A stretch of 64,000 bases of DNA from an uncultured Lachnospiraceae bacterium (GCA_949740725.1 CATJIO010000107.1:48592-112591), one strand, 5' to 3'; counted from the stretch's first letter, positions 9,424 through 61,967 are shown. Numbers and translations: made by a program. The notes: generated by a model not told the origin, from the sequence alone.

Positions 9424-10134
9424 TTATGTATTCTCGCCATTAATATAGTATCCAATATGCTGTTTCATCTGAAGATATCCCTCTTCCCCGATCACGATCT
9501 TCCCCTTCTTTATCTGAATGAAATCTTCTTCTTTCAGCCTTTTAATGTTACGGTTTAACGTTTTCACTGAAAAGCCAATTTCCTCGGATAGCTGCTCCCT
9601 GCTCTGCTTTAACTCCAGCAGCTTTTTCGGAGGCTGCTTTTGCTCATATTTCCGGATCAAATGCATCATCAGACGTTCTCTGCCCTCAATGAAAAGATAT
9701 TTCCGCGCGTCTGCTGTCTGTTCGATTAGCCTGCGCATGTTTTCCTGGGTTCGAAGGTATAATGCTTCCACATCATTCTGAAGCCATTCCATGTAGTAGA
9801 CCACCGGAATCACCGCTACCCGGCATCTGCTTACCGTCACCACGCTAATCCGGTAATTGGTAAGCCCCGCAAAATACTCAATTTCTCCAAAAAAGTCCCC
9901 AGGGCTATAATCTTTAAAGAAATAGGGGCGCTCCTTCATGGGCCACTCGATCCCGGTAACCCTGCCGGATAAAATGATATAAATATTGCTACATCTCTCC
10001 CCTGCTTCGATCAAGGTTTCCTCCTCCCCCACCTCTATCACCCTCATATAATACTTCACTTCTTCTGTACAATTTTGAAATAATCGTTCCATGTATGCCT
10101 GCATTTTAGGCGGCAGCTCTTGAAATATCTCCAT
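9424..10134 (-). CDS. Crp/Fnr family transcriptional regulator, probably first gene of the Mo-hydroxylase operon
   Basis: cNMP-binding domain (GDFFGEIEYFAGLTNYRISVVTVSRCRV) and C-terminal HTH (REQLSEEIGFSVKTLNRNIKRL); 16 bp upstream of the Mo-subunit start. Confidence 0.85.
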   Translation of the reverse strand: MEIFQELPPKMQAYMERLFQNCTEEVKYYMRVIEVGEEETLIEAGERCSNIYIILSGRVTGIEWPMKERPYFFKDYSPGDFFGEIEYFAGLTNYRISVVTVSRCRVAVIPVVYYMEWLQNDVEALYLRTQENMRRLIEQTADARKYLFIEGRERLMMHLIRKYEQKQPPKKLLELKQSREQLSEEIGFSVKTLNRNIKRLKEEDFIQIKKGKIVIGEEGYLQMKQHIGYYINGENT

Positions 10135-10296
10135 GACCTTACCTCTTTACCTACTGTATGTTTATTATAGCGAATGACTGGACGGAATAAAAAGGACGAA
10201 TGACCTAAATTCTTAATATTATTCAAATATGGCAAATTTAACAATTCTGTCTTTCTTTTCTACTATAGTATACCACACCTTTGTGCATATTGCCCA

Positions 10297-10339
10297 CAAA
10301 AAAATACTGCTCACCGCTATTTTAAGCCATGAGCAGTAT
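10297..10339 (-). terminator. Intrinsic terminator downstream of cupin gene
   Basis: On minus strand ATACTGCTCA-loop-TGAGCAGTAT then TTTTTTT. Confidence 0.75.
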
Positions 10340-10455
10340 CGTTTATCCTGCTGATCTGTTCGCTTGTCATACGATTTTCATGTGGATCTCCCGTCCTTTG
10401 ACCTCAACTGCCAAAGCCCCATCCCTGGTAAATTTCTTGAAAACCGTAGCAGCGC

Positions 10456-10812
10456 TTAATCCTGGGCAACTGCATCATCCATGGTATAGCCTTCGAGAGA
10501 ATTCTCCCTTACCTGAATACATGCAAAACGGATCCCTGAATCCTCTGCCGCAAAAAAGCGTCTGTTCCCTGCCGGAGAAATACGTATCCAATCACCTGCC
10601 TTAAGCTCTACCTCCTCTCCATCAATTATCGCCTTCCCCTTTCCCTCCAGCACCACATATATCTCCTCATTATGCTTATGGGAATGAGTAAAGGGTACGC
10701 TTGCACCTGCCAGCAGATAATTTACACTGACTTCTGCTCCAGTTAAAGATAGTTTGTCGTGAAGTTCTGTTCTTCCATCCTCCGTCACATTAACCTTGCT
10801 ATAATTCGCCAT
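10456..10812 (-). CDS. Cupin domain protein
   Basis: PFTHSHKHNEEIYVVLEGKGKAIIDGEEVELKAGDWIRISPAGNRRFF, cupin motifs 1 and 2. Confidence 0.88.
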   Translation of the reverse strand: MANYSKVNVTEDGRTELHDKLSLTGAEVSVNYLLAGASVPFTHSHKHNEEIYVVLEGKGKAIIDGEEVELKAGDWIRISPAGNRRFFAAEDSGIRFACIQVRENSLEGYTMDDAVAQD

Positions 10813-10834
10813 ATGTTTTACCTCCAAAATTTTA

Positions 10835-10895
10835 TTGTAACTTTTATTGATACAACTATCGTACCATCCTTTTGTTGTAATGTCAATAGTTACAA
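10835..10895 (-). promoter_or_regulatory. Promoter/operator region of cupin gene with two 21-bp inverted repeats
   Basis: TTGTAA-N9-TTACAA (10875-10895) and TTGTAA-N9-ATACAA (10835-10855); on the minus strand TTGACA-N17-TACGAT sits between and overlaps them. Confidence 0.6.
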
Positions 10896-10911
10896 TAAGA
10901 TTTTGTCCCTG

Positions 10912-11730
10912 CTATTTTTTCCTTACCGGAAAGCAGATCTCTGTCACCAGCTCCTCCGGATTATCCGTCTGCCCTGGGCTCACATGGTAGATGCAAAAAG
11001 ACTTTCCATCGAAATCATATCCGTTAGCAACCACCCAATTTGCCACCGCCGCATTTACCTTTGTTATCTGGTCATAGCTTCCTTTATATGTGGCGGATGC
11101 AATCTGGATTGGCGGCACCATTTTAAATTTTACATGTTCCGTATCCTGATACTTTCCTAATACTGTGCTCTGGATTTCCACCTCCGGGTCATGCTCTTTA
11201 AATCCTTCATCATGAAAAACCGCCATCCCATAGTTAGGAACCGCATACTGCACATGTTGTGGTTCCAATTCCCTGTGCAGGATCTCCCATAACATCCCCT
11301 CGCAGTGATAAGCGGGAATTACCTGACGTACACTCGCCACATAGCGCTCCGGTACTGTTTTTAATGTTACATTATAATCCATAAGGTTACCATCCTTTCT
11401 GAACCATTCCAATGTACTGTCAAGGAGCTTCTGCTTCTGCTGTATCTCCACCGCTTCCTTTTCCAGTTCCTTCCGCTTCAAAAGCAGGAACTGCTCCATT
11501 TCCTGTACGTCCTCATACTTGACCAGTATATCCTTTATTACAGAAAGCCCAAATCCCAGGTTCTTTAATGCCTGTATCCTCTCTGCCAGCGGGAGCTGGG
11601 ATTCACGGTAATATCGGTATCCGGTAAAATTGTCCACGTATTCCGGATGGAGGATTCCTATCTCATCATAATGTCGCAGCATGCGTATGCTGATTCTTGA
11701 CAGCTTTGAAAAATCTCCTATTTTTAACAT
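10912..11730 (-). CDS. MerR family regulator with C-terminal GyrI-like effector domain
   Basis: MLKIGDFSKLSRISIRMLRHYDEIGILHPEYVDNFTGYRYY MerR HTH, coiled-coil, then YVASVRQVIPAYHCEG...EVEIQSTV GyrI-like region. Confidence 0.9.
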   Translation of the reverse strand: MLKIGDFSKLSRISIRMLRHYDEIGILHPEYVDNFTGYRYYRESQLPLAERIQALKNLGFGLSVIKDILVKYEDVQEMEQFLLLKRKELEKEAVEIQQKQKLLDSTLEWFRKDGNLMDYNVTLKTVPERYVASVRQVIPAYHCEGMLWEILHRELEPQHVQYAVPNYGMAVFHDEGFKEHDPEVEIQSTVLGKYQDTEHVKFKMVPPIQIASATYKGSYDQITKVNAAVANWVVANGYDFDGKSFCIYHVSPGQTDNPEELVTEICFPVRKK

Positions 11731-51715: not shown

Positions 51716-51840
51716 ATTCTTTCTCCTAGTACCCCTTTTAATCCTGTTTTGCTACTTAGGTTACAGACCTGCATGCGCATCAGCGCATTTTTCATTATAG
51801 CACAAAATACGAGTTCCGTCCATGGAAATTAAGCGCAACG

Positions 51841-51869
51841 AAAAACAGGCTGCCCCTAGGGACAGCCTG
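51841..51869 (-). terminator. Intrinsic terminator downstream of HAD gene
   Basis: Minus strand CAGGCTGTCCCTAGGGGCAGCCTG then TTTTT. Confidence 0.75.
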
Positions 51870-51888
51870 CCAAATTATTTTATTCTTT

Positions 51889-52536
51889 TTAGAATGAAAG
51901 CCATTCCTCTACTTCCAAAAGAGAGGATAAAATGATCTTTGTTTTCTTCCTCATCTCTTCTGTGGGGGGTAAAAGATCCACCACCATAATGGGCATAGCC
52001 TGGGCTTTAAATGCAGCCCGGATGCCATTATAGGAATCCTCTATGATATAAGTTTCTTTCGGGCTGCTGTTGATTTCCTGGCATGCCTTCAAAAAGATAT
52101 CTGGCTCAGGCTTACTCCGCTTTACCATGTCACCGCCAATTATCGCGTCAAACCAGGATATCAAACCAGCATTGGTCAATTCCCGAATAACTGTTTTCTG
52201 ATTGGTGGAAGAGGCTACGGCAGTTTTTATCCGATGTTTTTTTAACGTTTCCAGCAGCTCCCGGATACCTGGCTTTAAAGGCAGGCGTCCTTCTCCGTAG
52301 CGATGTTCAAAAAGGGCGTCAACCTGTGCACAGTAAAACTCAAAATCAAATGCTTCTCCATACTGTTCCTTAAAGATCGCCTTTACTGCCTGCTCATTGC
52401 TCCCCAAACATTTTTGTGTAGCCTTGTGAATGTCTGAAAGCTGGTATTTCTCTGCGATAACATCCCAGCACTCCCTGATTTTGGCCTCAGAATCAAAGAT
52501 AACGCCATCCATATCAAATACGACTGCGGTAAACAT
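51889..52536 (-). CDS. HAD-IA hydrolase, beta-phosphoglucomutase/phosphatase-like
   Basis: MFTAVVFDMDGVIFDSE, VASSTNQKTVIRELTNAGL, KPEPDIFLKACQEIN, IIEDSYNGIRAAFKA. Confidence 0.92.
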   Translation of the reverse strand: MFTAVVFDMDGVIFDSEAKIRECWDVIAEKYQLSDIHKATQKCLGSNEQAVKAIFKEQYGEAFDFEFYCAQVDALFEHRYGEGRLPLKPGIRELLETLKKHRIKTAVASSTNQKTVIRELTNAGLISWFDAIIGGDMVKRSKPEPDIFLKACQEINSSPKETYIIEDSYNGIRAAFKAQAMPIMVVDLLPPTEEMRKKTKIILSSLLEVEEWLSF

Positions 52537-52623
52537 GCTCTCCTCCTTCGCTCTTTCAGAGTACTTGTTCACATAGGAAGCCCCGGATTCACCGGGAGGG
52601 AATTCGGGGCTTGCATCCTTTAA

Positions 52624-53658
52624 TTAATACTCCATCTGACGATAATATCTTCTGGTGGTCAGAGGATGATTTCTCTCTTTTTCAATGTGGCAGCTCAGTC
52701 TCTCTGTGATAGCATACATAATCATCGGAGAAACGATCTTCCGGAACTCAGAATCGGTAAATGGCAGTTCAATTTCTTTTGTGTCAAACTTATTTACACG
52801 GATATTGGTGCCGAATTTCTCCTTAATGGTTTCCTCAGCAAACTTATCCACACGATCCATCAGCGGTCTGGTCTCATCCTCTCCGTAGAAGAGAATCAGG
52901 CTCATGCCCTCCTCTAAAAGCTCGATAGTGCCATGGAAGAATTCTGCCGCATGGATAGATTTGGTCTTGATCCACTGCATTTCCTCCAGGATGCACATTG
53001 CATAGTCATACGCCTCGCCCCAAAGCATACCAGATCCAATTACCATGTGATAATCTGTATCCTTGTGCTCTGCCGCCATCTTTGCACAGCGATCCTCGTA
53101 CTGCTCCTTGGCCTTTAAAAGATAGGGAACAATCTTGGCATACTCATCCATGAACTGCTCATATTTGGGGAATTCCCCTGCATTCTTCATAAATCTGGCA
53201 ATCAGAGTGATCATGTAGGTGTAGATAGCTTCGCACAGACAGTCATCCTCTGCAAAACTGAACAGCTTGTAATCGGCAAATTCACATACCGGAGTGTTGT
53301 CATTGGATACATAGACAACTGTTCTTGCTCCTGCTTCTTTACAGAACTTTGCTGCAGCCACGATCTCCTTGGTATTTCCGCTTCTGGTGGAGAATACACA
53401 TACAGAGTCCTTGGTAAATTTCTTTGGCGGCGCAGCCATAAACTCTGCGGCGATAACGCTTACCGTCTCAATGGAAGAAGAACCGTCCAGCCAGAATTTC
53501 ATGGGAAGGGAGTGGGCATAGGTGCCGCCACAGCCGATAAAGAAGATATTGGAATAACCATCTTTGCAGATCTGGTCTACTGCTGCTTCAATCTGGGGTC
53601 TTAATGCAATCGCATCATTTACCACCTTTTCATAACGCGGAACGTTAAAATTAAACAT
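52624..53658 (-). CDS. SIS domain protein, FrlB-like fructosamine-6-phosphate deglycase (copy 1)
   Basis: IFFIGCGGTYAHSLPMKFWLD, VFSTRSGNTKEIVAAAKFCKEAG, MCILEEMQWIKTKSIHAAEFFHGTIELLEE, ERNHPLTTRRYYRQMEY C-terminus as in FrlB. Confidence 0.85.
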   Translation of the reverse strand: MFNFNVPRYEKVVNDAIALRPQIEAAVDQICKDGYSNIFFIGCGGTYAHSLPMKFWLDGSSSIETVSVIAAEFMAAPPKKFTKDSVCVFSTRSGNTKEIVAAAKFCKEAGARTVVYVSNDNTPVCEFADYKLFSFAEDDCLCEAIYTYMITLIARFMKNAGEFPKYEQFMDEYAKIVPYLLKAKEQYEDRCAKMAAEHKDTDYHMVIGSGMLWGEAYDYAMCILEEMQWIKTKSIHAAEFFHGTIELLEEGMSLILFYGEDETRPLMDRVDKFAEETIKEKFGTNIRVNKFDTKEIELPFTDSEFRKIVSPMIMYAITERLSCHIEKERNHPLTTRRYYRQMEY

Positions 53659-53721
53659 ACTAATTTTCCTCCTGATTTTCATCTGATTTCCAGTGTAAAT
53701 ATTCTGGCGTAATTTTATGTA

Positions 53722-54726
53722 TTAATATTCCAGTCTTCTGTAATAGCGGCGGATGTCCATGGTGTGCTTGCGAATTTCAGCCAGATTCTTATAGGCCCTC
53801 GCGAAAATGGTCCACATTACGATGGGAGATAAAATCCAGCGGAATTTATCGCTGATGCCCGGAAGCTCATAATCCTTTGTATCAAAGATAAACAGCTGGT
53901 TTGTGTGCTTCTCCGCAAACCGGATTACTCTTTCATCCAAAGGCCTCGTTGGACCCTCGCCCATGCCTACGCATACCAGTACGCCCTTTTCCACCATCTC
54001 AATAGTTCCATGGAAAAATTCTGCAGAATTTACGGATTTGGTGCGAAGCCACTGGCATTCCTCTAAGATACACATTGCCATGGAGTATACAGGGCCCCAG
54101 GTAAGACCGGAACCAGTCCAGATCTGATATTCCTTATCTGCTTTATCAAATATCATGGCATAATCCATACCTTTGGCGTCGGAAGCCTTTGACACAGATA
54201 CCAGCGCATTGCCCAGATTCTTTAATTCGTCTGCAAACTGGGGATAATCCTGGAATTCGCCTTTGTTATACATAATCTTTCCCAAAACAAAGATGGCAAT
54301 CAGGTCATGGGGCTCCGCGTCCCCGTAGTATACAGAATAGGTGGTAGCCTCCTTTAAAGGAGAATCCTGCTCGCCGCAGAAGGAAATTGTCGTCACGTTC
54401 TTCTCCGCCAGCCACTTTGCCGCTGCAACCGTTTCTTTCGTGTCGCCGGATTTTGAGGTGAGAATCGCTACAGTCCTGTCGGTGATTTCTGCATTGTCGG
54501 TCAGCATCATCTCTGCCGGGATCTCCGTCAGTACCGGAATCTTGGACATGCTCTTCATCGTGTAAGCGTAGGGCTCCAGCGCAGCTAGAGATCCGCCTGC
54601 GGAAGTAAACAGGATATTGTCAAATCCCTTTTCACAAACCTTGTCTGCGATCGCCTCCAGCTCTCCTCTGAGGGCATACAGCTTATCCGCCTGCTCCACC
54701 ATGATTTTTTCATCAAAATCGATCAT
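53722..54726 (-). CDS. SIS domain protein, FrlB-like (copy 2)
   Basis: ILFTSAGGSLAALEPYAYTMK, LTSKSGDTKETVAAAKWLAEK, MCILEECQWLRTKSVNSAEFFHGTIEMVEKG, HTMDIRRYYRRLEY. Confidence 0.85.
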   Translation of the reverse strand: MIDFDEKIMVEQADKLYALRGELEAIADKVCEKGFDNILFTSAGGSLAALEPYAYTMKSMSKIPVLTEIPAEMMLTDNAEITDRTVAILTSKSGDTKETVAAAKWLAEKNVTTISFCGEQDSPLKEATTYSVYYGDAEPHDLIAIFVLGKIMYNKGEFQDYPQFADELKNLGNALVSVSKASDAKGMDYAMIFDKADKEYQIWTGSGLTWGPVYSMAMCILEECQWLRTKSVNSAEFFHGTIEMVEKGVLVCVGMGEGPTRPLDERVIRFAEKHTNQLFIFDTKDYELPGISDKFRWILSPIVMWTIFARAYKNLAEIRKHTMDIRRYYRRLEY

Positions 54727-54820
54727 TACCGTTCCTCCTGTTTTATGAAATAAGGTTTCTTTGTTTGCTAAACTTATATTAGCATGTCTTAATACATATG
54801 TCAACTGGTATTTTTAAAAT

Positions 54821-55648
54821 TTATCCTTTTACTGCTCCAGAATTTAAACCATCCACAAAATATCGCTGTAAGCAGATATACACGATCACCATGGGAAGTG
54901 CGGCCAGGGTCAATCCGGCGATAAGCACGCCCCACTGAGTTTGAGAGGTAGAGCGAATTGCGAAAATTCCCAGAGGAACTGTCTGCAATTTCCTTCCCTC
55001 TGTAAATACCAAGGCAAAGGCAAAATCATTCCAGATATACCGGGCGCTCATTACTGCCGTAGTGGCGATTACCGGTTTACTCATCTTAAGGACAATGCTA
55101 AAAAACACCTGGCTGATGGAGCATCCGTCAATGATCGCCGCTTCCTCTACCTCAATGGGGAGATTACTCATAAAGGACCACATCAGGAAAAAAGAAAACG
55201 GGATCCGATAGGCTATGTAGGGAACCAGCAGTCCGATCCTGGTGTTATACAGTCCCACCATAGACAGCAGCTTATAGATGGGGATCAGAGAGCACTGGGG
55301 CGCCAGCATCATCCCGGAAAGCACAAACATGAAAATGAAATATTTGTGCTTAAATTCAAAACGGATAATCGCATATGCCGCCATACCAGAAATTAAAACC
55401 ACAAAAAAAGTACCGACAATCGTAAAGAATAAACTATTGATTACCGTATTCTGGATATATGCGCTCCACACATAGGTGTAATTAGAAGTCTGCCATACTT
55501 CCGGAAGGCTCCAGGGAGAACCAAAGATATCGCTGTCTGCCTTAAATCCACTTACCGCCATCCAAAGCAGCGGAAATATGATCACCACAATATACAGGGC
55601 CATAAAGATATGAATAATCCATCGTTTTATCTTGGAACTAATACTCAT
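54821..55648 (-). CDS. Carbohydrate ABC transporter permease (MalG-type)
   Basis: Multiple TM helices with EEAAIIDGCSISQVFFSIVLKMSKPVI EAA loop. Confidence 0.93.
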   Translation of the reverse strand: MSISSKIKRWIIHIFMALYIVVIIFPLLWMAVSGFKADSDIFGSPWSLPEVWQTSNYTYVWSAYIQNTVINSLFFTIVGTFFVVLISGMAAYAIIRFEFKHKYFIFMFVLSGMMLAPQCSLIPIYKLLSMVGLYNTRIGLLVPYIAYRIPFSFFLMWSFMSNLPIEVEEAAIIDGCSISQVFFSIVLKMSKPVIATTAVMSARYIWNDFAFALVFTEGRKLQTVPLGIFAIRSTSQTQWGVLIAGLTLAALPMVIVYICLQRYFVDGLNSGAVKG

Positions 55649-55649
55649 C

Positions 55650-56549
55650 CTATCTTTCCCCCTTCATTGTTTCTTTTACATTATACATTCTCATTTGAAT
55701 AAAGGAAAAAGCAAATGTAATCACGAACAGCAGTACGCCGATGGCGCTGGCATAACCCATATTATCCTTTCTAAATCCAGTTTTATACATCAGGGTGGCC
55801 AGAACCTCTGTGGCATTGCCTGGCCCGCCGCTGGTCATAACGTAAACCTCATCAAATACCATAAATGCACCGATGATGGTAATTGTCGTATTCATAAGAA
55901 TGGTAGACTTTATCAGCGGAATGGTAATCCGGAAAAAAGTCTGGAGTCCGCTGGCGCCGTCGATCTTAGCTGACTCGTAAATCTCCAGGGGCACGCTCTG
56001 AAGCCCTACCGTATACAGCATTACCATCTCACCAATATACTGCCACTGGGATACCATGATAACCGACCACATAGCTGTCTTCGCATTTCCCAGCCAGTCG
56101 TTGGTCAGAGAGGATAAGCCGATTTTTTCCAGAAGAGGATTGACGAAACCGATGGACGGGCTATACCCGATTACCCACAAAAGTCCGATGGCTGTCAGCG
56201 ACACCACCGCCGGAATAAAGATAATTACCCTGGTCACAGCCGCATACCGGCTGTTGGCAAAGGAATTTAAAAGATACGCGATGATCAGGCCTAATCCTAC
56301 CTGAAAGATAATGGAGACGATTGCGTATTTTGCGTTATTCGTCACCGCGAGCCAGATAGTATCATCCGTAAACAGCTTTTTAATATACCGCAGGCCCACA
56401 AAATCCATTGTCTTCGAATACGCTGTCCATTTAAAAAGACTGTAATACACATTTACAATAACTGGAAGGAAAATCAGCAATGCTACAGCCGCCACAGCAG
56501 GAAGCAGGAAAACCAACAGCATCTTTTTATTTTTGTATAATGTCGTCAT
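55650..56549 (-). CDS. Carbohydrate ABC transporter permease (MalF-type)
   Basis: TM helices with YESAKIDGASGLQTFFRITIPLIKSTI EAA loop, VMTSGGPGNATEVLATLMYKTGF. Confidence 0.93.
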   Translation of the reverse strand: MTTLYKNKKMLLVFLLPAVAAVALLIFLPVIVNVYYSLFKWTAYSKTMDFVGLRYIKKLFTDDTIWLAVTNNAKYAIVSIIFQVGLGLIIAYLLNSFANSRYAAVTRVIIFIPAVVSLTAIGLLWVIGYSPSIGFVNPLLEKIGLSSLTNDWLGNAKTAMWSVIMVSQWQYIGEMVMLYTVGLQSVPLEIYESAKIDGASGLQTFFRITIPLIKSTILMNTTITIIGAFMVFDEVYVMTSGGPGNATEVLATLMYKTGFRKDNMGYASAIGVLLFVITFAFSFIQMRMYNVKETMKGER

Positions 56550-56615
56550 AGTTTTACCTCTCTTAGCGATATGTCCGGCATCCCTTAACGAGATGCCGGA
56601 CATCCGGTCCTTCAG

Positions 56616-57956
56616 TTACTTGTCTGCGGCAACCTCCTCAGCGGTGGCGCTTACATCCTTCATAATGGACTCGCCGGTCTCCGCGTCAAAAATGGTCTGG
56701 CAGCCGATCAAATAGGTATCCGCAACGGTCTGATCAATTGCACAGTCAAGCCACTCGGAGATACCAGGCGCTGCTAAGTTCTTTTCGATGATTTCCAGAG
56801 ACTCTGGCATACATTTTGACTCGTCTAATTCTACGCCAGTACAGGGAAGGAAGCCCAACTCATATACCATCTTGGACTGTACCTCGTCACTGGTAATCCA
56901 CTTTAAGAACTTAATTGCCTCATCAGGATGCTTGGACGCGGAATTTACCATAAATACATCTGGGCCGCCAGTGATATAGCCAGCCTCTCCTGCTGCTCCT
57001 TCAACCTCTGGGAAGTCAAAGTAACTCCAGTCATCTCCAAGAGCGTTCTCGTAGTTAACCAGGTTCTGCACTTCCTCATAAATCATAGCAGCCTTGCCTT
57101 CCTGTACCATAGCTTGGGACATCTCCCATGTACAGGAGTTAATATCTGCATTGGTGAATCCTTTGTCATACAGCTCCTTCACCATATCCAAAGCCTGAGC
57201 ATATCCGGGATCCGTATAGGCCACTTCCTCCATGGTATAGTTCTTATTGGTAACATCAGCAGGAACCAGCTTTCCATTTAAGGTGGTAAGGTAATGACAT
57301 ACTACCCAGCTATACTGATTTCCTACAGCAATCGGGGTAATTCCCATATCCTTGATCTTCTGGCAAGCATCCAAAAATTCTGTCCAGGTCTTGGGAACCT
57401 CGGTAATTCCAGCATCTGCAAAAATCTTCTTATTGTAAACCATCTCTTTAGAGGAATAATCCCAGGGAATCGCCCAATAGGATCCTTCCTTGATACAGCA
57501 ACCCAGCATTGACTGGTTAAAGCTATCCTTCCACTCTGTATCCTCTTCCAGATATTTTGAAATATCCATAGCGTTTCCAGAATCTACGTACTGAGTAATT
57601 CTCTCGCCACTCCAGGTGAAAAAGATATCCGGCGCATCGTCGCTTCCAAGAAGAACTCTTGTCTTATCCTTGATCTCCTCGTCGCCATATGCGGTCATCT
57701 CGATCTTAATGCCGGGGTTCTGCTCCTCAAATTTTGCAACCACTTCATTAAAGTACTGCATTCTCTTTTCTTCCGGGAACTTGTGGACAAACTTGATCAC
57801 CACATCACCGCCTGCTGCAGCCTGTCCGGAATTCCCACTATCTTCCTTCTGCTGGGGCTCTCCGCCTGCATTCTGGCCGCCGCCTCCACAGCCGGTAAGG
57901 ACAGCCATACTCAATGCCAACGCAGTAACGACTTTAATTGTTCTTTTCACTTTCAC
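56616..57956 (-). CDS. Extracellular solute-binding lipoprotein (family 1, carbohydrate)
   Basis: Lipobox LSMAVLTGCGGGG; solute-binding features (NPGIKIEMTAYGDEEIKDKTRVLLGSDDAPDIFFTWSG). Confidence 0.94.
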   Translation of the reverse strand: MKVKRTIKVVTALALSMAVLTGCGGGGQNAGGEPQQKEDSGNSGQAAAGGDVVIKFVHKFPEEKRMQYFNEVVAKFEEQNPGIKIEMTAYGDEEIKDKTRVLLGSDDAPDIFFTWSGERITQYVDSGNAMDISKYLEEDTEWKDSFNQSMLGCCIKEGSYWAIPWDYSSKEMVYNKKIFADAGITEVPKTWTEFLDACQKIKDMGITPIAVGNQYSWVVCHYLTTLNGKLVPADVTNKNYTMEEVAYTDPGYAQALDMVKELYDKGFTNADINSCTWEMSQAMVQEGKAAMIYEEVQNLVNYENALGDDWSYFDFPEVEGAAGEAGYITGGPDVFMVNSASKHPDEAIKFLKWITSDEVQSKMVYELGFLPCTGVELDESKCMPESLEIIEKNLAAPGISEWLDCAIDQTVADTYLIGCQTIFDAETGESIMKDVSATAEEVAADK

Positions 57957-58001
57957 TCTTTCTTCCTCCTTTTTCTTTTACTGCGGGTTACTCCATATCA
58001 A

Positions 58002-58023
58002 ATCTTGTATTATATCATGATAT
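58002..58023. promoter_or_regulatory. Candidate operator in the SBP-GntR intergenic region
   Basis: 12-bp perfect palindrome ATATCATGATAT (58012-58023) next to ATCTTGTAT (58002-58010), whose reverse complement ATACAAGAT recurs at 58205-58213 in the gntR promoter. Confidence 0.4.
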
Positions 58024-58250
58024 GATAATTGTTGAGCTTATATTAACACATTATATTACTACAGTCAAGCAAAATTATAATTTTTTTCACAGAAAAAATA
58101 TAAATCTCTCCGCTTTTTTGTTGAGTATTCACATTTCTTTTTCCTTCTTCCAATACAGATAAGAGAAAAATGGAATTTTTCTATTTTAAACTTGCATTAT
58201 GATGATACAAGATGTTATAATGGATGAAACGAGAAAGGGGGGATTCGACT

Positions 58251-59009
58251 ATGATTGAACATGAAAGTGCGATTCCGCTTTATCAGCAGATAGAAAACGA
58301 CATCAAGCAAAAGATCATGACCGGGGAATATCAGGCTGGACAGATGCTTCCTAGTGAAAGCAAGTTTTGCGAGATGTACCAGGTAAGCCGCGTCACCATC
58401 CGGAACGCCATAACAGACTTGGTGGATCAGGGCATCTTGATCCGCAAGCACGGCAAGGGTACCTTCGTGGAAAATCAGAAGATTACTTCCAATCTAGTTA
58501 CCTTCAGCGGCTTTACCACCACTTGCCGGGAAAATAATCTTCGAATTAACACCCATATCCTCTGTGTGCGCCGTCAGGAGGCCTCTATGTATGATATCCG
58601 TACTCTGCAGCTGGAGGAGGGAGACGATATCATCTATATCAAGCGTATCCGCTATGCCGACGGACATCCGGTGATTATCGAGCATGTCCACCTGCCTTAT
58701 CAGGAATACAGTTTCTTGTTAGAGGAGGATCTAGAGGACCGCTCTCTGTATGACACCTTGGAGAAGCACACCGGGGCAAACCCGGAGAATTACTGCCACA
58801 CTACCATTTGTCTGGAAGCCAGTGGAGCCACCCCGGAGGAGGCGCTCTTCTTAAAGCTGCAGCCTGGGAATCCGCTTTTTATTCTGAAGGAAACCATCAT
58901 TTCCGATGTGGGGCATCCGATTCACTGGACAAAGCAGATCATGTCAGGCAATTACTTTAAATTCTATCTGACTGATACTATAAATAAGCTGTCCATCAAT
59001 ATCGATTAA
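58251..59009 (+). CDS. GntR family regulator with UTRA domain (HutC/FrlR-like)
   Basis: IPLYQQIENDIKQKIMTGEYQAGQMLPSESKFCEMYQVSRVTIRNAITDLVDQGILIRKHGKGTFV; C-terminal UTRA. Confidence 0.93.
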   Translation: MIEHESAIPLYQQIENDIKQKIMTGEYQAGQMLPSESKFCEMYQVSRVTIRNAITDLVDQGILIRKHGKGTFVENQKITSNLVTFSGFTTTCRENNLRINTHILCVRRQEASMYDIRTLQLEEGDDIIYIKRIRYADGHPVIIEHVHLPYQEYSFLLEEDLEDRSLYDTLEKHTGANPENYCHTTICLEASGATPEEALFLKLQPGNPLFILKETIISDVGHPIHWTKQIMSGNYFKFYLTDTINKLSINID

Positions 59010-59022
59010 TTTATTTTCGGTC

Positions 59023-59071
59023 AAAAAAGACTGGAACATGTAAGTGGCTTTTTCATGTTCCAGTCTTTTTT
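59023..59071. terminator. Bidirectional intrinsic terminator between gntR and HAD gene
   Basis: AAAAAAGACTGGAACATG...CATGTTCCAGTCTTTTTT, 18-bp perfect arms. Confidence 0.85.
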
Positions 59072-59092
59072 GCTGTCAGCGAACATTGGCTT

Positions 59093-59950
59093 TTATCGGC
59101 TGCTTTCGATGAGATGGCAGATCACATCAGCGATACCGTCCTCATCATTGGAAGGAGCAATATACTGGGCTGCCTTCTTTAACGCGGGCTGAGCGTTGGC
59201 CATGGCAACCCCTATTCCCGCATAATCAATCATGGACAGATCATTAAATCCATCCCCACAGGCAATGAGATCCTTCTGCTCCCGCCCTAGACGCTTTAAC
59301 ATCCACTGCAATGTTTGGGCTTTATCAATCCCCTTTGCAGTAACTTCGAGGAAATATGGCTCTGACCGGCAAATGTTCAGACGTCCATTCCAATAGGCTT
59401 TCATACTTTCTTCCACAATCTTCAAATGTTCTTCTTCCCCGGTCATCAGACACTTGGTAACCGGAAAATTTACATATTCAGAAAAGTTTTCAGTCTGACG
59501 GATTTCCATGTGGTTAATCAGGCTTTCCTTTTGGCAGTACTTCTCCTCCGGATGCTCGGTAATAATATACTTGTCTTTATAGGTCATAATATTGACTTCA
59601 TACTCCCTTGCCTGGGTAGCCAAGGTATCCACCACTTCCTGATCTAAGGTTTGCTGATACAAAATACATCCTGTTTTGCAATCTGTTACACAGCCTCCGT
59701 TATAGGATAAAATATAGCCTCCCTTTTTTCGAAACTCCAGCTCCTCCGCTACTGGTATAACACCGTAGGTAGGACGTCCTGAAGCTAGGATGACCCGTCC
59801 GCCCAATGCCATAAATAATTTCAATGCCCATCGAACTACTGGGGTAACTTGTTTTTCTGAATTTGTCAGTGTACCATCAAGATCAAGAGCAAGCACACAA
59901 TCTGAAATCTTTCGTCTTTCTTTCTCGAATATTGTTCCCATTTTCCTCAC
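59093..59950 (-). CDS. Cof-type HAD-IIB family phosphatase
   Basis: VLALDLDGTLTNSEKQVTP, ILASGRPTYG, LIACGDGFNDLSMIDYAGIGVAMANAQ. Confidence 0.92.
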   Translation of the reverse strand: MRKMGTIFEKERRKISDCVLALDLDGTLTNSEKQVTPVVRWALKLFMALGGRVILASGRPTYGVIPVAEELEFRKKGGYILSYNGGCVTDCKTGCILYQQTLDQEVVDTLATQAREYEVNIMTYKDKYIITEHPEEKYCQKESLINHMEIRQTENFSEYVNFPVTKCLMTGEEEHLKIVEESMKAYWNGRLNICRSEPYFLEVTAKGIDKAQTLQWMLKRLGREQKDLIACGDGFNDLSMIDYAGIGVAMANAQPALKKAAQYIAPSNDEDGIADVICHLIESSR

Positions 59951-59974
59951 CTGCAGTTTTTGTTTGATAACCGT

Positions 59975-60892
59975 TTATTGCACTGAGCTCACTGGCACAC
60001 CGCATCCATAGGCTCCCTTAATCCGACAGGTAAAGCGCGCTTTTAAATTTCCCATACACATCCCTGTCTCGATCGCCTGTCTCCTCACATCTGCCTGATT
60101 CTCCTCCAGGATAAATTTCCCGTCAGATCCAGCGATCATATCCTCCATCCGCTTCGTAATTTCCACATAGGTGGTGATGAATCCGCTGATCCAGGAGTCC
60201 CCGCATCCGGTAGTATCTATGGCGCCGCCGCCGATATTATAAGGCTCCTTGGTGTAAATCTCCTTGCCGTCATATACCCATGCCCCCTTGGTTCCCATGG
60301 TCATGATCGCCATAGAACAGAAACGGGAATCCACCGCCTTCTTCAGAATGCTCAGATTCTCCTGCTGAGACAGATCATCCCTTCCGGAAAACAGGATGTA
60401 GTCCGCTACATTAGAAATCATTTCCACCTTTTCCTCGTTCCACTCTGTGGAAAAATCATAGAGGAGCGGAATCCCTGCCTCCTTGACCTTGATCAGCTGA
60501 TCGTCAATATAGCTGTAGCAGCTGGTATGGACAAGATCAAACCCCCCCAGATATGCCAAAATCTCATCTGTAACCTCCAGAGGATGGGACTTCACCAAGC
60601 CTCCATTATTTTCGTCGCCAATTACCCGATCTCCATCAATCAGATTAATGAAACAGCGCCCCGTCTCCCCTTGGAGCACTGGGCTCATGGTATACTCTAC
60701 CTTCTGTTTATCTAAGGAATCTGTCAGTACCTTCCCGTAAACATCATCCGCCAACACTCCTACATAAGCCGCCTTATGCCCCATCTGACTGCAGTACACT
60801 GCCACATTCACACAATTCCCGCCTGGATTTACAATCCCGTCAATATAGTTGATGTCCACCACGTTATCACCCATACATGCGATTTTAATCAT
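59975..60892 (-). CDS. PfkB family carbohydrate kinase, FrlD-like (fructoselysine 6-kinase-like)
   Basis: IACMGDNVVDINYIDGIVNPGGNCVNVAVYCSQMGHKAAYVGVLADDVYG and IDTTGCGDSWISGF (DTxGxGD). Confidence 0.85.
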   Translation of the reverse strand: MIKIACMGDNVVDINYIDGIVNPGGNCVNVAVYCSQMGHKAAYVGVLADDVYGKVLTDSLDKQKVEYTMSPVLQGETGRCFINLIDGDRVIGDENNGGLVKSHPLEVTDEILAYLGGFDLVHTSCYSYIDDQLIKVKEAGIPLLYDFSTEWNEEKVEMISNVADYILFSGRDDLSQQENLSILKKAVDSRFCSMAIMTMGTKGAWVYDGKEIYTKEPYNIGGGAIDTTGCGDSWISGFITTYVEITKRMEDMIAGSDGKFILEENQADVRRQAIETGMCMGNLKARFTCRIKGAYGCGVPVSSVQ

Positions 60893-60924
60893 TTTATACC
60901 CCCTCCTTATACTTAATCATTAAT

Positions 60925-61824
60925 TTATAAATATTCATCGCGTATTACAACCAAAATCCCCATCATAATCAGGATACACCCCAAAAGCTTCAGGGGATTC
61001 ATCGTCTCTCCCAACAGCACCACCCCTACAATCACACAAGTCATCGGCTCCAGCATAGAAAAGAGGGAGGCTGTTCCGCCTCCTGTATACCGCACACCAA
61101 ACTGGAACAGGATATTGGCAGCAACACCAGACAAAAGTGCGTGTGCCCCGGTCATCATCCATGCAGAACTAGTCAATGAGACCCACAGGCCGCCGGTAAA
61201 ACTTCCATAAAACAACGTCAACATCATCCGGATCAGCAGCATATAAAAGCCAAACCATATGTAATCTGCTTTTTGAAGCCCAGTCTTTTCCATCACTAAA
61301 ACATATCCAGCATAGGTAAAACCAGATAGCAGGGCCAACAGAATCCCCAAACCGGCCCCCTGTCCGGAAAGATCCGAGGTGAGTGCCACCCCTGCCAGGC
61401 TTAAGGCAAGAGCAATGCCCTTTCCAATTGTCAGCTTTTTATTCAGAATCCAAATACCAAGAATTGCCACATACACCGGATAGGTAAAGTGCAGGACCGT
61501 GGCAATCCCTGTGGATATCAGGTCAAAGGCGCTGAATAGTAAAAGAGTGGTCAACCCTCCGAAAAGGCCGTCCAGTAAAAGCCAGGGAAGCAGCTCTTTT
61601 CGCGGAAGAAAAGGAATTTTTTTCCAAATCATAAGTCCACCAAAGGCCAACACACTAAAAACAGAAGAATAAAAGGTGAAGGCAATAGGATTGCTTCCTC
61701 CTTCATAGGCATAGGTGGCAAACAGCGCATTAAATCCATATATTAATGCAGAGAGCATCGCCCCTCCTGCTCCTATCATTTCCATATTCCTGCTCCTGAT
61801 GCAGAAGCCCTCCCTCCTTACCAT
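60925..61824 (-). CDS. DMT superfamily (EamA) transporter
   Basis: About ten TM helices; EamA features (HFTYPVYVAILGIWILNKKLTIGKGIALALSLAGV, LEPMTCVIVGVVLLGETMNPLKLLGCILIMMGI). Confidence 0.9.
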   Translation of the reverse strand: MVRREGFCIRSRNMEMIGAGGAMLSALIYGFNALFATYAYEGGSNPIAFTFYSSVFSVLAFGGLMIWKKIPFLPRKELLPWLLLDGLFGGLTTLLLFSAFDLISTGIATVLHFTYPVYVAILGIWILNKKLTIGKGIALALSLAGVALTSDLSGQGAGLGILLALLSGFTYAGYVLVMEKTGLQKADYIWFGFYMLLIRMMLTLFYGSFTGGLWVSLTSSAWMMTGAHALLSGVAANILFQFGVRYTGGGTASLFSMLEPMTCVIVGVVLLGETMNPLKLLGCILIMMGILVVIRDEYL

Positions 61825-61967
61825 AATCTTCCTCTCTTTCTCCCCATAGTTGACAAAGTGGTATTCTACATGTATATTAATAACATCATATGACGTCTTT
61901 GTCAAGTACAAAAAAACAGAAGCTTCCTCTGCCTCTGTTTTTCCTCTCTCGTCTCTCTATTTTCTGT

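Follow-up and report, generated by a model that had tools for sequence, protein, structure and literature searches.

A predicted accessory cassette for Amadori-compound catabolism with two SIS deglycase lineages in an uncultured Lachnospiraceae bacterium

The window, a 64,000-nucleotide stretch (GCA_949740725.1, CATJIO010000107.1:48592-112591) of the metagenome-assembled genome (MAG) G000 of an uncultured Lachnospiraceae bacterium (3.34 Mb, 185 contigs, 83% complete), carries a ten-gene locus for the predicted degradation of Amadori compounds. Two SIS-domain proteins, SIS1 and SIS2, are encoded in tandem beside an ATP-binding cassette (ABC) importer, a sugar kinase, a regulator, two HAD phosphatases and an EamA transporter.

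Gene content and conservation of the locus

The ten genes are, in descending order of coordinates:

60925..61911, minus strand: EamA (DMT-family) transporter; Pfam EamA 1.1e-37; the start is probably internal, around MEMIGAGG at ~61788
59975..60892, minus strand: PfkB kinase, FrlD-like, a predicted fructosamine 6-kinase; NCBIfam FrlD 163 bits
59093..59950, minus strand: Cof-type HAD-IIB phosphatase; Pfam Hydrolase_3 1.8e-65
58224..59009, plus strand: GntR/UTRA transcriptional regulator; Pfam GntR and UTRA; divergent from the operon of the solute-binding protein (SBP)
56616..57956, minus strand: CUT1-type solute-binding lipoprotein; SBP_bac_1 8.5e-47
55650..56603, minus strand: ABC permease of MalF/UgpA type (permF); BPD_transp_1
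54821..55648, minus strand: ABC permease of MalG/UgpE type (permG); BPD_transp_1
53722..54804, minus strand: SIS2, predicted fructosamine-6-phosphate deglycase of the GfrF lineage; PDB 2a3n/8glr 7e-69; likely start ~54726
52624..53682, minus strand: SIS1, predicted second deglycase, of the Priestia frlCABDR lineage; PDB 2a3n 8e-62; likely start ~53661
51889..52572, minus strand: HAD_2 (bPGM-like) phosphatase; HAD_2 3.2e-35

Pfam and NCBIfam profile matches confirmed an earlier note, made from the DNA alone, in that the named genes are real open frames of the families it gave. Its reading of a common motif block and tail in the SIS proteins was exact (MCILEEMQWIKTKSIHAAEFFHGTIE with RRYYRQMEY and MCILEECQWLRTKSVNSAEFFHGTIE with RRYYRRLEY). 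The EamA gene that it counted as a member is present, but lies at 60925-61911, beyond the end at 60892 that the note had set. The genes are split between at least two transcription units, namely EamA-kinase-Cof and SBP-permF-permG-SIS2-SIS1-HAD_2; the regulator gene diverges from the latter.

Among named relatives, an uncultured Lachnospiraceae MAG carrying the same locus (L010) is the closest, and the full gene set is also present in two genomes of the same genus, G1168 (L115) and G1163 (L116). A contig scan with one query protein returned two relatives only. Gene order is kept in L010/L115 and L116 and rearranged in the loci L045 and L097 of the genomes G126 and G291. With L010 as reference, dN/dS is ~0.01-0.05 for nearly every gene of the locus: 0.012 for SIS1, 0.024 for SIS2, similar values for the permeases, SBP, regulator, kinase and Cof HAD, and 0.05 for HAD_2; EamA is looser (0.14). 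Conserved order together with low dN/dS argues that the arrangement is not due to chance. Both SIS genes are under strong purifying selection and in use. EamA neighbours in L010/L116 are 63-72% identical; L045 and L097, too, have an EamA, a diverged one.

The locus is an accessory, movable cassette. Here and in G1168 it lies between two genes which, from our own reading of the proteins, we take to be spoVT and gdpP, and it fills the whole gap between them (window 51716-61967). In congeners without the locus, the two genes are ~0.4 kb (G1164) or 1.2 kb (G1161 and G1160) apart. In G1163, the cassette is on a contig other than those with spoVT and gdpP. No tRNA was found in the window.

Lineages and active sites of the two SIS proteins

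Both SIS proteins match PDB 2a3n/8glr over the whole length, with the E values listed above. We regard these structures, whose PDB titles are generic, as those of Salmonella GfrF, which is the fructoselysine-6-phosphate deglycase; the second SIS protein of a Klebsiella gfr operon, 84% identical to them, also supports this label. For both proteins they outrank Bacillus subtilis FrlB (3eua) and FraB-like chains, and GlmS and NagB-II models match more weakly. Alignment showed that SIS1 and SIS2 each keep the S/T-x-S-G-x-T phosphate-binding loop and the counterparts of Glu488 and His504, the catalytic isomerase residues of GlmS.

A maximum-likelihood tree placed SIS1, SIS2, GfrF and the deglycase of the Priestia frlCABDR cluster in one group with 100/99 support, and the group was recovered again in a tree without the longest branches. 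With the longest rows omitted, the partner of SIS2 was Salmonella/Klebsiella GfrF (97/98), and that of SIS1 was the deglycase of the Priestia plasmid frl cluster (L014; 95/91). B. subtilis FrlB fell outside the GfrF group, together with FraB and STM0572 (outgroup in one tree, midpoint root in the other). Both SIS copies were thus placed inside the GfrF group and apart from the GfrE clade, which is GlmS-like and 11-18% identical to SIS1/SIS2; a GfrE identity was rejected for either copy. For Enterococcus faecium, GfrF has likewise been described as homologous to FrlB, and GfrE as homologous to GlmS (PMC12735817).

A recent tandem duplication of the SIS genes was rejected, as was a single SIS1 plus SIS2 clade in the approximately unbiased (AU) test (p-AU 3.8e-64). 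The subclades of SIS1 and SIS2 are fixed differently at 59 positions and have 77 fixed positions in common. At the 59 diagnostic positions, GfrF agrees with SIS2 at 24 and with SIS1 at 10, and the Priestia enzyme with SIS1 at 31 and with SIS2 at 9. The subclades also differ next to the catalytic histidine (HAAEFFHG versus NSAEFFHG). Tree, AU test and diagnostic positions thus identify the pair as an assembly of two lineages and not a tandem duplication.

The two lineages are separable in other genomes. L045 in G126 has SIS2-SBP-permF-permG-kinase-EamA-SIS1-HAD as one run. G291 has the same run without SIS1 (L097), and its SIS1 is located on another contig, alone beside a GntR gene (L093). G059 and G392 (L050, L094) encode SIS1 without SIS2, together with the same kinase subfamily (45-48%), genes of a CUT2 ribose-type importer and a FrlC-like epimerase. 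L011 encodes a SIS2 relative (58%) without SIS1, and SIS2-like enzymes occur with phosphotransferase system (PTS) genes in L046-L048. The occurrence of each protein alone, with different transporters, makes a heteromer less likely and favours separate substrates. Two deglycases are combined with ABC importers in another way, FraB-type with GfrF-type, in L063, L096 and L100, and FrlA/FrlC/FrlD are found in many of the family's loci. GfrF-group enzymes were detected in 34 of the 397 sampled Lachnospiraceae (the window genome counted), versus ~1% of wider class and phylum samples.

In L011:329-17491, a complete Opp-type importer is encoded on either side of the SIS2 relative, and a 2,4-diaminopentanoate-dehydrogenase-like gene is nearby. 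This gene company hints at another amino-acid conjugate, for example an ornithine derivative. Membrane proteins of the YitT/DUF2179 type recur beside deglycase genes (L046:13819-14685, L047:9409-10272, L063:10332-11216).

Kinase, importer, phosphatases and candidate operators

FrlD is the best family of the kinase, with a lead of 109 bits (163 versus 54 for the next family), and identity to Escherichia coli FrlD is 29%. The PfkB GxGD motif is kept, within DTTGCGDSW. The kinases associated with SIS2 (window 59975-60892, L045, L097, L011) have GCGD instead of the usual PfkB GAGD. One kinase subfamily accompanies SIS2-type and SIS1-type loci alike.

Profile searches detected no ATPase in the locus. 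An orphan MsmX/UgpC-type ATPase is encoded elsewhere in the genome (L111:1384-2499, on G000:C174; 498 bits versus a cut-off of 432), apparently without permease neighbours within the 4 kb read. In B. subtilis, either MsmX or FrlP powers the fructosamine importer FrlONM, and FrlR acts as a repressor (PMC12632257). A locus without its own ATPase is therefore ordinary. G1163 has a second SBP in its kinase operon, 71% identical to the first, with one permease pair (L116:14482-15846 and 9835-11181), which suggests a swappable ligand specificity.

HAD_2 genes adjoin deglycase genes in E. faecium, L046, L052, L053 and L095; in E. faecium C10-7, the order is SIS-SIS-HAD_2 behind a PTS. In the collected loci, HAD matches lie on the strand of the SIS gene and within seven genes of it, as found with a profile built from these same proteins. 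HAD_2 and Cof domains are fused in one protein of 481-487 amino acids in L045 and L097, and L047 and L048 carry another HAD_2-Cof fusion. All these fusions are located in deglycase loci (L045:1537-3000, L097:3016-4461, L047:7955-9430, L048:12240-13676). That they are orthologues of both window HADs proved true for one half only: identity is 44-50% in the Cof part, and the HAD_2 part aligned with the window HAD_2 in one case (27% over 139 residues, E 1e-4) and went undetected in the other. The window HAD_2 is thus not clearly orthologous to the fused HAD_2, judged by these alignments. A specificity of the Cof HAD for deglycase loci was also rejected, the fusion being matched (E <= 1e-35) in 171 of the 397 Lachnospiraceae genomes. 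Among the matches listed, nearly all cover the Cof part only, and full-length matches are present only in G126 and G291, both in deglycase loci. The two window HADs belong to generic families, so that any role in the locus is putative; dephosphorylation or proofreading, as the earlier note had it, is possible. The FraB substrate 6-phosphofructose-aspartate (6-P-F-Asp) is toxic on accumulation and poisons Salmonella fraB mutants (PMC4941530), which makes a putative role of the HADs as a safety valve attractive.

Two candidate operators share the pattern ATCATATNAYG:

58016..58026, minus strand: candidate operator ATCATATCATG, between the regulator and the SBP operon; at the same place in L010/L115
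61885..61895, plus strand: candidate operator ATCATATGACG, upstream of the EamA-kinase-Cof operon; conserved in L010, L115 and L116

These are the only two matches in the window, one per promoter region of the locus, and the pattern is also present in promoter regions of L097 and L093. As an operator motif, it is suggestive only.

Interpretation and comparison with known systems

The locus as a whole is best explained as an accessory cassette for the catabolism of Amadori compounds (fructosyl-amino acids), with two deglycases for two fructosamine classes, a reading that we hold with considerable confidence. The analysis bears out the central claim of the earlier note, an Amadori catabolic locus with two diverged deglycase paralogues, an ABC importer and probably two substrates. 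The SBP and the two permeases would import Amadori compounds, with energy from an MsmX-type ATPase that is shared and lies elsewhere in the genome. The imported compounds would then be phosphorylated at C6 by the FrlD-like kinase. Each SIS deglycase, a dimer by itself, would split the 6-phosphates into glucose 6-phosphate and the free amino acid, one protein per fructosamine class, for example epsilon-fructoselysine and an alpha-fructosyl amino acid. EamA is probably the exporter of the amino acid set free, and the probable task of the HADs is to dephosphorylate sugar-phosphate intermediates that are stalled and toxic. Both operons would be repressed by the GntR/UTRA protein until a phosphorylated substrate binds to it. 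Two substrates through one importer is the best reading, with a congener having even two binding proteins.

Much of this plan has precedents. ABC importer, kinase, deglycase and GntR regulator are already known from B. subtilis, ABC importer, kinase and deglycase from Intestinimonas, and two deglycases from gfr. The frlBONMD-frlP system of B. subtilis likewise has a CUT1 ABC importer, a PfkB kinase, an SIS deglycase and a GntR regulator and can use MsmX (PMC12632257), but it has a single deglycase of another SIS clade and encodes FrlP at the operon; the described operon is without EamA and paired HADs, both present here. Intestinimonas AF211, which also belongs to the gut Clostridia, has a fructoselysine cluster of ABC importer (AF_00952-00955), kinase (AF_00949) and deglycase (AF_00951); set beside the window by its published description, it differs in that the published model has one deglycase (PMC4697335). 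The gfrABCDEF operon of Salmonella and E. faecium for fructoselysine and glucoselysine shares the two tandem SIS genes and the GfrF lineage of SIS2, and in an E. faecium plasmid version the SIS pair is likewise followed by a HAD. In contrast to gfr, the window has an ABC importer and a kinase instead of a PTS, and two GfrF-type enzymes without GfrE; profile searches detected no mannose-family PTS genes in the locus. An E. faecium conjugative plasmid carries its gfr-type operon (PTS, two SIS, HAD phosphatase) near bile-salt hydrolase genes (L114:5477-10770). The frlABCDR-type loci (E. coli; Priestia plasmid L014) share kinase and deglycase, and SIS1 is nearest to the Priestia deglycase, but their FrlA permease and FrlC epimerase are absent from the window locus; no FrlC epimerase was found elsewhere in the 83% complete assembly. 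For the architecture, the word 'new' in the earlier note was too strong, since B. subtilis frlBONMD and Intestinimonas already combine ABC importer, kinase and deglycase. New here are the paired deglycases and the recurrent HAD_2/Cof pair: in the open-licence literature, we found no description of two separate-lineage GfrF-type deglycases behind one CUT1 importer with EamA and HAD_2/Cof.

The tandem SIS genes, together with the same SIS-SIS-HAD order in the E. faecium plasmid locus, could indicate a fructoselysine and glucoselysine system with one SIS protein per 6-phosphate, like GfrF/GfrE in Salmonella and E. faecium. This parallel, implied by the earlier note, fails at the GfrE-type enzyme, whose distant GlmS-like clade holds neither window protein, and we consider it very unlikely. 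An obligate heteromer, in which SIS1 and SIS2 make one mixed enzyme, would suit the arrangement of the two genes, which lie in tandem on one strand in three genomes of the genus. The note had offered it too, but it is at odds with the full catalytic pair in both proteins, with genomes or loci that have one and lack the other, and with the deep separation of the lineages; it is extremely improbable.

Redundancy is a more serious rival, although still unlikely. Both proteins would act on the same compound, for example fructoselysine-6-phosphate, and keep a toxic intermediate low, with the HADs doing likewise. Membership of the same GfrF supergroup and the toxicity of 6-phospho-Amadori intermediates (PMC4941530) agree with this, but the 59 fixed differences between the subclades, set against 77 shared fixed positions and partly next to the catalytic histidine, and the distinct transporter partners in other genomes do not. 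The weaker GlmS and NagB-II matches and the Opp-type importers flanking the SIS2 relative in L011 would fit the degradation of another phosphorylated amino sugar or opine by an isomerase or deaminase. The deglycase structures, however, outrank GlmS/NagB-II by dozens of orders of magnitude, FrlD is the best kinase family and FrlA/FrlC/FrlD occur in many loci of the family, so that this reading has little probability.

Several points weigh against Amadori catabolism by two deglycases, the explanation preferred here. The kinase is under the FrlD equivalog cut-off (163 versus 247 bits), and the SIS proteins, at 82 and 81 bits, do not reach the cut-off of 430 of the FrlB equivalog NF008481; an E. 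faecium protein of the GfrF supergroup is likewise below it (61 bits). To our knowledge, no member of the SIS1 or SIS2 subclades has known biochemistry, and the ligand of the SBP is not readable from its sequence. Cof HADs of similar identity are common in Lachnospiraceae without deglycases, and the HAD link could be incidental. The operator pattern was picked by eye, after inspection, and 7 of 100 shuffles had at least two matches.

Heated food contains Amadori compounds that arrive in the colon, and nutrition research is actively asking which microbes degrade which of them. It is a tentative and rather doubtful generalisation that gut Lachnospiraceae combine one ABC importer with deglycases of different lineages to use two Amadori pools and add a dedicated HAD_2/Cof safety valve against 6-phospho-fructosamines. 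If the reading of the cassette is right, surveys of Lachnospiraceae by the single markers frlD and frlB give too low a count of this capacity and assign it wrongly, and a comparison of the paired deglycases would be a natural way to find the determinants of deglycase substrate range. The phosphatase safety valve, if true, would be relevant to the poisoning of Salmonella fraB mutants by 6-phospho-Amadori intermediates.

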